From Fibrobacteria bacterium (GTDB lineage Bacteria > Fibrobacterota > Fibrobacteria > UBA11236 > JADFYW01): DNA of 64,000 bases. Positions 21,192 through 25,975 of the stretch are shown in pieces (positions within the stretch are counted from its first letter, which is position 1; each line of letters begins with the position of its first letter). A program made the position numbers and the translations under genes. The notes under the pieces were generated by a model that worked only from the letters and a program-made list of their open reading frames with translations, was not told where the DNA came from and did not search any database. Location: NCBI GenBank assembly GCA_015232855.1, contig JADFYW010000003.1:1-64000 (forward strand), written 5' to 3'.

Positions 21192-21956
21192 TTATAAAAG
21201 GGAAAAATTATTTTGTCTATTGAGTTCATATAGCATAATTGAAAGGGCTACGCTTGTATTATACGAATGAGTCTTTGATGAAATAGGGATTTTTACCATG
21301 ATGTCACAAGTCCTTTTGATATGTGGAGGAATGCCCTTATCTTCTCCGCCTATTACAAGAATTGTGGGAAAATTATAACTCGTTTCGTGAATAGTGACTG
21401 GGCTATTTTCTTCAAGACCGATAATTTTAAATCCTTCGTCTTTTAATTGATTAAGCTCTTCTTCAGGATTGTTTACCCTGCAAATGGAAATAATCTCTGC
21501 TGCACCAGCGGCTGCTTTTGCTGCAGTTGCGGTAAGCCCACAGGTTCCTTTGTTTGGGAACATTACGGCCTGGGCTCCCAAACCTGATGCTGAGCGTATA
21601 CATGCTCCGAGATTTCTTGGATCTTCAATAGCAGCGGCAAATACGATAAAAGGAGTTTCCCCTGATTTTATCTGTTGTATAAGTGATTGACGTATTTCCT
21701 GCCAGTCATCCAAAGATCTGCTGTTGCAAAAAGCAAGAATTCCCTGATGTCTGTTTCTGTACCAGTTATCCAGTTTGGACATGGGCAACTGATGCACACG
21801 TATTTTTAATTGGTCAGCTATTTTTTGCAGAGCAAATAGTTTTTTATTACCGCTGTCTTTTTGAAAAACGAGATGGTTTATTTTGTCGGGAGAGTTTTTT
21901 AAAAGAGACTCAACGGGATTAATACCTGCTATGATACTTGTTTCTTCGGTAGCCAT
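21192..21956 (-). CDS. rlmB: 23S rRNA (guanosine-2'-O-)-methyltransferase RlmB-like (SpoU/TrmH)
   Basis: 'GINPVESLLK', 'EDPRNLGACIRSASGLGA', 'VIGGEDKGIPP', 'VKIPISSKTHSYNTSVALSIMLYE'. Confidence 0.9.
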   Translation of the reverse strand: MATEETSIIAGINPVESLLKNSPDKINHLVFQKDSGNKKLFALQKIADQLKIRVHQLPMSKLDNWYRNRHQGILAFCNSRSLDDWQEIRQSLIQQIKSGETPFIVFAAAIEDPRNLGACIRSASGLGAQAVMFPNKGTCGLTATAAKAAAGAAEIISICRVNNPEEELNQLKDEGFKIIGLEENSPVTIHETSYNFPTILVIGGEDKGIPPHIKRTCDIMVKIPISSKTHSYNTSVALSIMLYELNRQNNFSLL

Positions 21957-21963
21957 AAGGACC

Positions 21964-23130
21964 TTATTTTTTATGTTCCAGAATATTTTTCATGAATTGA
22001 ACAAAGAGGTATTCTGAATCTCTGGGGCCGGGTGATGCTTCAGGGTGATATTGAACGGAAAAAACAGGAAGCGTTTTGTGGCGAATACCCGCGACTGTGT
22101 TATCATTTAAATTTATATGGGTTATTTTAAGTATTGATGTATCGATACTGCCAGGATCAACCGCAAAACCATGGTTCTGTGAAGTGATTGCAACTTCTCC
22201 TGTTTCCAGGTTCTTGATGGGATGATTAGCTCCTCGATGTCCGAACTTCAGTTTGAATGTTTTTGCTCCCAACGCAAGGCTGAGGAGTTGGTGACCCAGG
22301 CAAATACCAAAAATAGGAACTTTACCTATAAGTTCGACTATCGTTTCCTGGGCATATTTTATGGGTTCGGGATCTCCGGGACCATTTGATAACATTACTC
22401 CGTCTGGTTTGAGAGCCATAATATCTTTAGCTGAAGTGGTTGATGGAACCGTTATAAGGGTAGCGCCCAAAGAATGTAACTTACGCATTATATTTAGTTT
22501 GACACCAAAATCAATGGTTACGATGAGAGGTTTTTTACTATCCACATCCATGGATTCGAGCTTTTTAAAGCAGAGGTCATACTCATCTTCGGTCCAGTTG
22601 TATTGTTCTTTGGTGGTTACCGTTGTTGCGAGATCCTGGCCGGTCATTTGGGGAACTTTTTGTGCCCTTTGGATTATTTCTTCCTTGTTATAGGTACCCG
22701 TTGCCAGTATTCCGGTGAGGGCGCCTTTTTCTCTAAGGATACGAACTAACTTGCGGGTATCAATGTTTTTAATACCAGGAATATTATTTTGACGTAGGTA
22801 TTCGGAAAGCGTTAAAATGTTTTCTTTATCATATCCCTGTCCGTTACGATAATTCGATGGCCATTCACTGCAGTTTTTTACAATAAAACCTGAGGCCTGG
22901 ATGGCGTTAGATTCAATGTCTGTAATGTTTACACCATAATTACCGATTTCCGGATAAGTCATAGCGACAATTTGCCCGGAATAAGACGGGTCTGTCAAAA
23001 TTTCCTGGTAACCGGTCATGGAGGTGTTAAAACATACTTCGCCTTCGCAGGTGTTGTCTGCTCCGAATGAAAGTCCTTCAAAGACGGTACCGTCCTCAAG
23101 GGCTAAAATTGCTTTGGTACTTTTTGTCAT
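21964..23130 (-). CDS. carA: Carbamoyl-phosphate synthase small subunit
   Basis: 'ALEDGTVFEGLSFG', 'FNTSMTGYQEILTDPSY', GATase triad 'FGICLGHQLL' and 'VQYHPEASPGP'. Confidence 0.97.
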   Translation of the reverse strand: MTKSTKAILALEDGTVFEGLSFGADNTCEGEVCFNTSMTGYQEILTDPSYSGQIVAMTYPEIGNYGVNITDIESNAIQASGFIVKNCSEWPSNYRNGQGYDKENILTLSEYLRQNNIPGIKNIDTRKLVRILREKGALTGILATGTYNKEEIIQRAQKVPQMTGQDLATTVTTKEQYNWTEDEYDLCFKKLESMDVDSKKPLIVTIDFGVKLNIMRKLHSLGATLITVPSTTSAKDIMALKPDGVMLSNGPGDPEPIKYAQETIVELIGKVPIFGICLGHQLLSLALGAKTFKLKFGHRGANHPIKNLETGEVAITSQNHGFAVDPGSIDTSILKITHINLNDNTVAGIRHKTLPVFSVQYHPEASPGPRDSEYLFVQFMKNILEHKK

Positions 23131-23144
23131 AATAATGGTTTCGG

Positions 23145-23909
23145 TTAAAGTTCCAGGTTGATAATTCGTTGGTCAGATATAATATAATCCATTTTTTGGT
23201 CATGGCTTTGCTGGGGAATAGGCTCCAGGGCTATTTGGTTATCAAAACAGATACCCAGACGTTTGCCTGGTTGTTTTTCCAGGTACTTATCATAATAGCC
23301 TTTTCCTCTACCAATGCGGGCTCCGTTTTGGTCAAAACATCGCCCTGGAATCAAAAATAAATCAGGAAGACAATCTGGTTCAACTCTATGGCTATGATCC
23401 GGTTCTAAAATATCAAAGGCGCCTTTTATGGTGTCTTTCTCCAGGTCTTCAATAATGGCAAAATTCATTTCTGCTTCGATAATATAGGGTAAAAGAAGTT
23501 TTTTGCCATCTTTTAAAATTTGAGATATCAATGCTCTGGTATTGAGTTCATCTGAGAGGCTGACATAGGCACCGATATATTCGGCTTTTTTATAAATCGG
23601 GAAATCAGAAATGAGTTTAACAATATTTTCTGAGGCATCAGCCTTTGTGTCTTCCTTAAGCTCTGCAACCCTGGTTCGTCCCCAGGTGCGCCAACGTTTG
23701 ACCTCTTCTTGGGTACTGGTTTCTTTTTCTTTTGTTTCTTCCTCTTCGAGCAGGGAATTGAATTGATAACGCAAATCTGATTGCATGCGGTAAAATTTGG
23801 TACGGAGAGAACGGATCCACCTCAGGGCTTTACTGATTTGCTTGACATCAAAACTGACGAGAACAAGTCCCAGGACAATTAAAATTTCTGCAATACCAAA
23901 AGAGGTCAT
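23145..23909 (-). CDS. TatA/B-like N-terminal domain fused to 5-formyltetrahydrofolate cyclo-ligase
   Basis: N-term 'FGIAEILIVLGLVLVSFDVKQISKALRWIRSLRTKFYRMQSDLRYQFN' is TatB-like; C-term 'FLIPGRCFDQNGARIGRGKGYYDKYL' is the 5-FCL signature. Start overlaps tatC stop by 4 bp. Confidence 0.85.
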   Translation of the reverse strand: MTSFGIAEILIVLGLVLVSFDVKQISKALRWIRSLRTKFYRMQSDLRYQFNSLLEEEETKEKETSTQEEVKRWRTWGRTRVAELKEDTKADASENIVKLISDFPIYKKAEYIGAYVSLSDELNTRALISQILKDGKKLLLPYIIEAEMNFAIIEDLEKDTIKGAFDILEPDHSHRVEPDCLPDLFLIPGRCFDQNGARIGRGKGYYDKYLEKQPGKRLGICFDNQIALEPIPQQSHDQKMDYIISDQRIINLEL

Positions 23910-24637
23910 GAAGTGATGTTTTTTTTACCGGTTAAATAGGATATGAATATGGACAGGCCGTATATGAGTATAAGTGGAACTGCTAATAAAACCTGGGTTA
24001 CCGGGTCTGGGGGGGTGAGGAAAGCAGCTGTCACAAAAATTATAATGATGGCATAACGGCTAAAAGACCATAACATTTTTGCATCAACCAGCCCAAGTCG
24101 GGTGAGTGCAAAAGAAATAATGGGCAATTCAAAAGACGCACCAAAAGCGATAAGTACTTTGAGAATAAAACTAGCATATTCCCCCTGACGCCAGCTAGGG
24201 GTGATGTCACCAAGTGTATAATTCGCAAGAAATGCAATGCCGTAGGGTAATACGGTAAAATAACAGAAGGCTGCTCCTCCCAGGAAAAGCGCAACAGAAA
24301 AAAAGAGAACGGGGATTATCATTTTCTTTTCTTTTTCAAAAAGCCCGGGGGCAATAAAACGCCAAATGTGCCAGAGTACAATAGGGGAGGATATCACGAT
24401 TCCTGAAATAATAGCAACTTTTATACTGGTGATAAAAGCTTCAATTGGAGCAGTATTGATGAGTTGGACATCGGTATTTTTTAGAGGTTGGGTGAGAAGT
24501 GCCCATATTTTCCGCCAATAAATATATGAACCGATAGAAGCTATAACAATTGCAAGAGAAGCATATATTAATCGGGAACGTAGTTCCCGTATATGGTCCC
24601 ATAAAGTCATTTCATTATTATCTGGCAGGCTTTTCAT
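23906..24637 (-). CDS. tatC: Sec-independent protein translocase TatC
   Basis: 'MTLWDHIRELRSRLIYASLAI', 'IAPGLFEKEKK', six predicted TM segments. Confidence 0.96.
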   Translation of the reverse strand: MKSLPDNNEMTLWDHIRELRSRLIYASLAIVIASIGSYIYWRKIWALLTQPLKNTDVQLINTAPIEAFITSIKVAIISGIVISSPIVLWHIWRFIAPGLFEKEKKMIIPVLFFSVALFLGGAAFCYFTVLPYGIAFLANYTLGDITPSWRQGEYASFILKVLIAFGASFELPIISFALTRLGLVDAKMLWSFSRYAIIIIFVTAAFLTPPDPVTQVLLAVPLILIYGLSIFISYLTGKKNITS

Positions 24638-24713
24638 GACCAGCAGTAAATGTAATTAAATTGAATAGAGGAAAGAGCGGAGATATGAAATTTTAAGATG
24701 CATATACAGTAGT

Positions 24714-25850
24714 TCATTTTGAACTCAAAGCTTCTATCCATGGCTTAGAAAGCAAGGCTTTTTGCCAATTCATCAGCGAAGTGCCATTGTTAATGTTTTT
24801 TGGAGAACGTTTGGCTAGTTGGGCAAAATGGCCAATCGAATCTTTTGATGCCAATAATGAGGCAGGGAGATTCAATTTTCGGGCAATTTTGTCCCTGGTT
24901 TCTTTTAAAATGGTTACCACTTTTGGATCTGGGGAAGAAGTCTTGTGTGACGTTGATTTTATCCTTTTAGGCCAGTTTTCAGGTGGTATTTTTTCTGCAT
25001 GAATGATAGTTTCAAGTAAAGACGTTTTTAAAACGCTTTGGGTTTTTAATGGCAGTTTTTCCCAGGTGATATATTTGCCCTGGTTGGATGGAATAAGTGA
25101 TATCATATGCAACATGGCTTTGGTATTGAAAATTTTGTGAACAGGCTTGTTATTTTCTTTTGCCTGCTGATCTCTCCAATTCCAGACTTCTTTTAAGACA
25201 TTGAGCTGTCTTGAAGAAAAACGGTGTGAACCTTTGATACGCCAGACAGTCTCTTTATCAGGTTTCTGATAATACTGTGCTACTTCTATGAGGTGGTCAC
25301 ACCATTCTTGTTGCCAGGATAAGCGACCTAAATCTGAGAGTTCTCTGGAAAGATTTTCTTTTAGCTCAGGAAGAAAAAAAGTGTCTTTAGCGGCATAATA
25401 GAGCATTTCTTCTGAAATGGGTCTGATAGACCAGTCTGCTCGTTGATACTTTTTGTCAAGTTTAACATTGAAATATTGCTCTACCAGAGCGGCAAGGCCA
25501 AAAGCTTTTTTACCTGCGAGTTGAGCCGCAATCATGGTGTCAAAGATGTGAGATGGGGCAAAGTCGAATTTTTGATGGAGCATACGTAAGTCAAAATCAG
25601 AGCCATGTACTACGATCAGCTTTGGTTTTAGTGCTGCCAACAGGCCTTTGAGATTAATATCACTGATAACATCAATTAAGTAAGCTGTTTCATCTACCAG
25701 CAATTGGATCAATGAAATAGTAGTACCATAGTGATACATGTTATCAACTTCCATGTCGAAGTAGATCTCTTTGAGGGGCTTTATACGTTTTACCAATTGG
25801 TCAAGTTTTCTTTGCTTGTCTATGTAGATGCTTGGATAATTGGTTGTCAT
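24714..25850 (-). CDS. rnd: Ribonuclease D-like 3'-5' exonuclease (DEDDy + HRDC)
   Basis: 'IYFDMEVDNMYHYG', 'VHGSDFDLRMLHQKFD', 'RPISEEMLYYAAKDTFFL', HRDC-like region. ATG at 25850 preferred to 25889. Confidence 0.88.
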   Translation of the reverse strand: MTTNYPSIYIDKQRKLDQLVKRIKPLKEIYFDMEVDNMYHYGTTISLIQLLVDETAYLIDVISDINLKGLLAALKPKLIVVHGSDFDLRMLHQKFDFAPSHIFDTMIAAQLAGKKAFGLAALVEQYFNVKLDKKYQRADWSIRPISEEMLYYAAKDTFFLPELKENLSRELSDLGRLSWQQEWCDHLIEVAQYYQKPDKETVWRIKGSHRFSSRQLNVLKEVWNWRDQQAKENNKPVHKIFNTKAMLHMISLIPSNQGKYITWEKLPLKTQSVLKTSLLETIIHAEKIPPENWPKRIKSTSHKTSSPDPKVVTILKETRDKIARKLNLPASLLASKDSIGHFAQLAKRSPKNINNGTSLMNWQKALLSKPWIEALSSK

Positions 25851-25975
25851 GGTCAGGTAACAGAAAATCCTGGTAATAAAATAAGACACAGTTATTCTGT
25901 TTCAGCCTTTGAAATTAGTAAAAGAGTTCAAAGGTTTCTTCCCGAAAATTAAGATAATTAATTAATTTTCCCCCC

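Follow-up and report, generated by a model that had tools for sequence, protein, structure and literature searches.

Why would a subunit of a protein exporter and an enzyme of folate metabolism be made as one polypeptide? The question is raised by a gene in the stretch of 64,000 nucleotides from a Fibrobacteria bacterium that we analyzed here (the window; contig JADFYW010000003.1, positions 1 to 64,000). TatB is a core part of a universal exporter, and 5-formyltetrahydrofolate cyclo-ligase (5-FCL or MTHFS) is a universal one-carbon enzyme that catalyzes the ATP-dependent conversion of 5-formyl-THF to 5,10-methenyl-THF. A fusion of both connects protein export with one-carbon metabolism and makes 5-FCL a membrane protein. 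We found no description of a TatB and 5-FCL fusion in the literature; the parts are known, and their combination and phylum-wide history are new as far as the literature found goes. A first-pass annotation, made from the letters alone, had proposed a fusion of a TatA/B-like domain with a full 5-FCL, coupled to tatC, which would either hold the enzyme at the Tat complex or represent a derivative of TatB.

The gene occupies positions 23145..23909 on the minus strand. As claimed initially, it is a single uninterrupted frame that starts with ATG, encodes 254 amino acids and contains no internal stop. The gene order on the minus strand is rnd, tatC, fusion, carA, rlmB. The RNase D-like rnd (24714..25889; DNA_pol_A_exo1 and HRDC domains) is a conserved upstream neighbor, separated by a 76-nt gap (24638..24713) from tatC (23906..24637; 243 amino acids, Pfam TatC 4.7e-70). 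This gap is the site of tatA in most relatives of the class, and the window carries no tatA. Downstream lie carA for the carbamoyl-phosphate synthase small subunit (21964..23130), the neighbor in the nearest relatives, and rlmB (21192..21956), the downstream neighbor in the class. Scanning the window against Rfam and for tRNA genes gave no match. Reading the window sequence, we found that the fusion ATG and the tatC stop have four nucleotides in common, the ATGA at 23906..23909 (minus strand; ATCACTTCATGACC). This overlap points to translational coupling and fits translation of the fusion by re-initiation at the tatC stop. A candidate internal start that might release a free 5-FCL appears unlikely from the sequence: M42, the sole methionine of the TatB part, has no Shine-Dalgarno-like sequence upstream, and internal methionine positions are not common to the relatives.

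The C-terminal part was clear from family profiles. Residues 76-245 (23175..23684, minus strand), which contain GARIGRGKGYYDKYL, matched 5-FCL in Pfam PF01812 with 4.5e-35 (121.7 bits, cut-off 27) and in TIGR02727 with 9.4e-40 (136.5 bits, cut-off 84.9). In 59 sequences, R198, G200, G202, G204, Y206 and D207 were invariant and K70 and R74 nearly so. The predicted model matched solved 5-FCL structures, with a Foldseek value of 3.3e-17 to 2jcb and a TM-score of up to 0.89. Judged by its sequence, this region is a complete 5-FCL, as the first reading had it. With known 5-FCL enzymes (PF01812, TIGR02727; PDB 2jcb, 3hy6, 1sou) it shares the whole domain, the fold, the GxRxGxGKGYYD signature and the pair K70 and R74. 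In contrast to these enzymes, the fusion is anchored to the membrane N-terminally by TatB, and its 5-FCL helix 1 is predicted to be continuous with the TatB amphipathic helix.

The N-terminal part was less easily recognized. Residues 1-52 (23754..23909, minus strand) comprise a short N-tail, a transmembrane helix at about 6-19 and a basic amphipathic helix from residue 22; for residues 22-50, the hydrophobic moment of 1.33 was reached by only 41 of 5000 shuffles, and the net charge is +7. Taken alone, the window protein matched TatB profiles weakly over residues 1-67 (TatB_Rickett 1.2e-4, tatB 0.022), stayed below every TatB cut-off (19.5 bits vs 75 for TatB_Rickett) and had no TatB-type match in Pfam. 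With its relatives the assignment became unambiguous: NCBIfam tatB TIGR01410 was matched by 31 of 32 family members at E<=0.01, at best with 6.5e-13. Pfam TatA_B_E matched 22 of the 32; it does not recognize the domain of the window protein, and it fails on 10 of the 32 members, so that such genomes look in annotation as if they lacked TatB. When a profile of the 32-domain alignment was run against the PDB, TatB chains came first (9.4e-11, 1.2e-10 and 4.5e-10), whereas bacterial TatA chains reached 6.4e-7 at best (B. subtilis TatAd) and fell off to about 1e-3 or weaker. The only invariant column of this alignment is a glutamate within the first helical turn of the transmembrane segment, Glu8 in the window protein (codon 23886..23888, minus strand), which bears out the TatB-type glutamate seen initially and is equivalent to E8 of E. 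coli TatB. E. coli TatB binds TatC via E8, which bonds to T208 and Q215 of TatC in TatBC structures (PMC13323110). The window TatC keeps the equivalents of E. coli E15, F94, L99, E103, T208 and Q215, and M205 is replaced by alanine.

Set against known TatB proteins (TIGR01410; E. coli PDB 2mi2 and 9dzz, N. salsuginis 9e02), the fusion shares the single transmembrane helix, the glutamate near the N-terminus and the basic amphipathic helix; likewise, its gene adjoins tatC, and the partner TatC retains the polar site. It differs in carrying a folded enzyme where known TatB has a poorly conserved, largely disordered tail, and in the gene order, tatA-tatC-tatB here vs tatA-tatB-tatC in E. coli. A further difference concerns the Gly-Pro hinge between the helices. 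Its replacement by 'SFD', noted at first sight, was found in the window as SFDV; this loss, however, is not peculiar to the gene, since most fusions of the outer classes read FGSKELP, with GS at the hinge, and those of class Fibrobacteria have Asp, Lys or Ser before the proline. The hinge position is hence not absolute in Fibrobacterota.

The fusion is widespread in the phylum. A protein search found it in 9 of 10 genomes from the order of the window organism, and in a single genome from another family of the class, with copies that align from residue 3 of the window protein (residue 1 in one case); named copies include Fibrobacteres bacterium RYN_349 and RH-14apr17-165, and Fibrobacter itself is among the relatives. 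In surveys of the class (126 genomes) and phylum (168 genomes), full-length matches occurred in most families that retain tatC adjacent to the gene, and the phylum survey found them in other classes of Fibrobacterota as well. The proposed search of the phylum thus returned the same fusion in at least 45 other genomes, and a separate tatB in several genomes where the genes have parted. Among the best 80 matches listed in a scan of named sequences, none was a fusion from outside Fibrobacterota.

Almost everywhere it occurs, the N-terminal domain keeps company with tatC. Of 72 surveyed loci, 44 have tatC as the immediate upstream neighbor of the 5-FCL frame, and every one of these frames carries a TatB-profile match, which agrees with the coupling to tatC that the 4-bp overlap had suggested; starts of TatB-type N-termini usually overlap the tatC stop by 4, 1 or 8 nt. 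Where tatC is not upstream, the domain was found on 5-FCL in 1 of 28 loci (G145, with tatA directly upstream and tatC elsewhere). From this co-occurrence, and from free TatB proteins of about 52 residues encoded after tatC, we conclude that the domain is the whole TatB as the phylum uses it and that it goes with tatC and not with 5-FCL. Three kinds of sequence comparison, by profile, by synteny and by co-occurrence, identify it as the TatB subunit itself. Calling it TatA/B-like was therefore right as to the Tat family and too general as to the subunit, and of the two roles initially considered it is the TatB derivative that these tests point to. Among 61 relatives searched, the genomes with the fusion showed no second TatB, as TatB profiles matched only the fusion and the shorter TatA, apart from one weak match in G037. 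Likewise, each fused genome had one 5-FCL match, with the exception of G006, where it is split at a contig end. Median dN/dS was 0.08-0.23 for the N-terminal domain of Tat-linked fusions and 0.15-0.19 for 5-FCL, at dS values often near saturation; being well below 1 in every group tried, these values indicate that both halves are under purifying selection. In three loci of one genus (L034, L036, L038), an insert of 216-268 nt separates tatC from the fusion and the usual overlap is lost; in two of them it carries GGGCGTCGGGCGTC-type repeats.

How the two domains are joined can be judged from a structure prediction and from their spacing. AlphaFold2, run on 59 sequences (the window and named loci only, few of them fused), gave a model with a mean pLDDT of 93.4 in which a membrane helix (6-19) and a kink are followed by a single helix over residues 22-82 (23664..23846, minus strand) and then by the MTHFS fold. 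This helix would join the TatB amphipathic helix to 5-FCL helix 1 and includes the K70-x3-R74 motif. The region that had been called a charged linker does join TatB to 5-FCL, but it is modelled within the continuous helix. The linker is thus probably not floppy, in agreement with a fixed spacing: from the TatB glutamate to the lysine of the 5-FCL K-x3-R motif we counted a median of 63 residues (IQR 62-63, n=32), and in either deep clade most fusions have a distance of 62-64 residues. Such a near-constant length across the phylum argues for one ancient fusion event and not for repeated ones, as far as spacing can suggest it. A tree of the 5-FCL domain, with 176 columns too few for this purpose, left the deep forks unresolved, with outgroups intermixed, and did not distinguish one origin from two. 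In Fibrobacteraceae fusions (L042-L046, L183-L188), the junction has lost about 30 residues and with them the K-x3-R motif; here the TatB amphipathic helix may double as enzyme helix 1, or the enzyme may be altered, so that 5-FCL activity may differ in these proteins.

In some lineages the two genes have parted. A free TatB gene of about 52 codons that matches the TatB profile follows tatC, overlapping it or nearly so, in seven genomes in which the tat genes have moved from the 5-FCL locus (G045, G057, G133, G149, G150, G154 and G155); in G149 and G150, 5-FCL has a normal start. In G045 and G057, 5-FCL forms the C-terminal part of one protein with the RNase D-like product of the upstream gene (L047 3055-4854, L048 3542-5374), as it also does in G061 (L190). 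The enzyme was thus fused a second time, independently, once the tat genes had moved away. With fusions that formed, split and formed anew with RNase D, the phylum offers a set of natural experiments. In the genus Fibrobacter, 5-FCL carries a short N-terminal membrane anchor, e.g., MNMVTAIVAIILVMLVFGSSQIVELVLKKRR, that lacks the TatB glutamate and has no tatC nearby (L113 4866-5453, L119 4866-5453, L147 4872-5453; also L055-L062, L070, L192, L193). Some Fibrobacter species have no TatC at all, yet keep the anchor. It has a dN/dS of about 0.20 and an AlphaFold2 pLDDT of 53-64, and most of nine anchor sequences score above most shuffled controls against TatB, a weak likeness. Suggestively, the anchor could be a TatB relic that holds the enzyme at the membrane.

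We favor, with a probability of roughly 0.8, the reading that the fusion is an obligate bifunctional protein, the sole TatB and the sole 5-FCL, and that it has been kept as a by-product. For its parts, we infer a TatB function within TatBC, 5-FCL activity and a single origin. The transmembrane helix would use Glu8 to dock at the TatC polar site. The amphipathic helix would cover the mouth of the TatBC receptor on the cytoplasmic side and continue unbroken into helix 1 of an otherwise normal, cytoplasmic 5-FCL. With such an unbroken helix, as modelled, each TatBC receptor would bear 5-FCL domains on its cytoplasmic side. The protein would be made by re-initiation at the tatC stop. Most likely the fusion arose once, early in Fibrobacterota, when a stop was lost between a short tatB and the next gene, for 5-FCL, in a tat operon; loss of the stop after a 52-codon tatB would leave both functions. 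We propose that the fusion has been kept because the first ~50 residues are all that TatB requires, and because 5-FCL can bear a helical extension at its N-terminus. About 50 residues of E. coli TatB are indeed enough for export, and TatBC structures show disorder or mobility in the residues past the amphipathic helix (PMC9436932, PMC13323110, PMC13186574).

Alternatively, the fusion might be a functional tether, such that 5-FCL, or a folate or ATP state that is sensed, regulates or assists Tat export, or such that 5-FCL must be at the membrane. We regard this as unlikely. The fusion does persist across the phylum with fixed spacing, and the anchor on the Fibrobacter enzyme was kept though the tat genes left the locus, also in species without TatC. 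Moreover, quality control of folding has been assigned to the part of E. coli TatB outside the membrane (PMC9436932), and here 5-FCL occupies that very place. A phylum with a folded enzyme at the extrinsic part of TatB, together with relatives whose TatB ends right after the amphipathic helix, amounts to a direct evolutionary test of that part. However, the TatB domain and 5-FCL were separated several times; these lineages evidently manage with a 5-FCL that stands alone or is joined to RNase D, and their Tat systems with a free TatB of about 52 amino acids. Furthermore, we know of no metabolic link between 5-FCL and Tat.

Two-component TatAC systems consist of a bifunctional TatA and TatC (PMC13186574), and in the window genome, too, a single TatA/B-family protein was found beside TatC. 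The N-terminal domain could be a combined TatA/TatB of a two-component system after loss of tatA, a reading that we consider somewhat less likely than a tether. It would account for the absence of tatA from its usual site between rnd and tatC and from the 5.4 Mb assembly as a whole, in a genome that has TatC, the fused TatB and three proteins with twin-arginine signals (SRRNFIK and SRRAFLK in DUF362 proteins, SRRKFLK in a DsrO-like iron-sulfur protein). But the assembly is 79.7% complete, tatA may be absent by chance, and we therefore do not conclude that the window organism exports without TatA; its Tat system may be incomplete, or part of it may be encoded in the ~20% that the assembly lacks; tatA was present in all ten relatives of the same order. 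An enzyme of about 200 amino acids on each protomer should also hinder TatA-type oligomers, and the sequence is nearer to TatB than to TatA. Unlike the TatAC systems, the fusion combines a TatB-like protein with an enzyme, and its relatives have a separate TatA. That both would hold at once, with 5-FCL as a working part of the Tat receptor (e.g., by folate/ATP sensing or by a cargo check that replaces the TatB tail) and export by TatC and the fused TatB without TatA in the window organism, appears more doubtful still. Two objections that the first-pass annotation itself had raised carry far less weight. A membrane anchor unrelated to TatB and merely resembling it would explain the weak match of the window sequence alone and the missing hinge Gly-Pro, yet the profile matches of the family, the invariant transmembrane glutamate, the strict link to tatC and the free homologues after tatC speak against it, and we reject it as highly improbable. 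A sequencing or assembly artefact that joined tatB and 5-FCL is hardly conceivable, as dozens of independent genomes have an uninterrupted frame and a conserved junction length; the same architecture, with no stop between the domains, recurs in at least 45 further genomes of Fibrobacterota, which rules out a frameshift, and we found no point in favor of an artefact.

Some further loci deserve mention. The window genome contains genes for a DsrO/DsrJ/DsrK-like complex (L196 712-2988, minus strand), including the twin-arginine iron-sulfur subunit; DsrA had no match above the cut-off in this genome. Fibrobacteraceae have a separate tatA-tatC locus (L065, L066, L068), where the neighboring gene encodes a DUF362 protein that bears the twin-arginine signal MDRREFLK; no tatB adjoins this locus, and it coexists with the fused locus in Hallerella-like genomes (g8). 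In G007, an in-frame TAG within the 5-FCL domain (L037 3136-4038) leaves TatB intact and cuts the enzyme, which reflects either a sequencing error or natural decay. Finally, in G053 and G054 (L051 2052-4499, L052 3711-6083), 5-FCL forms the N-terminal part of a frame of about 800 amino acids.
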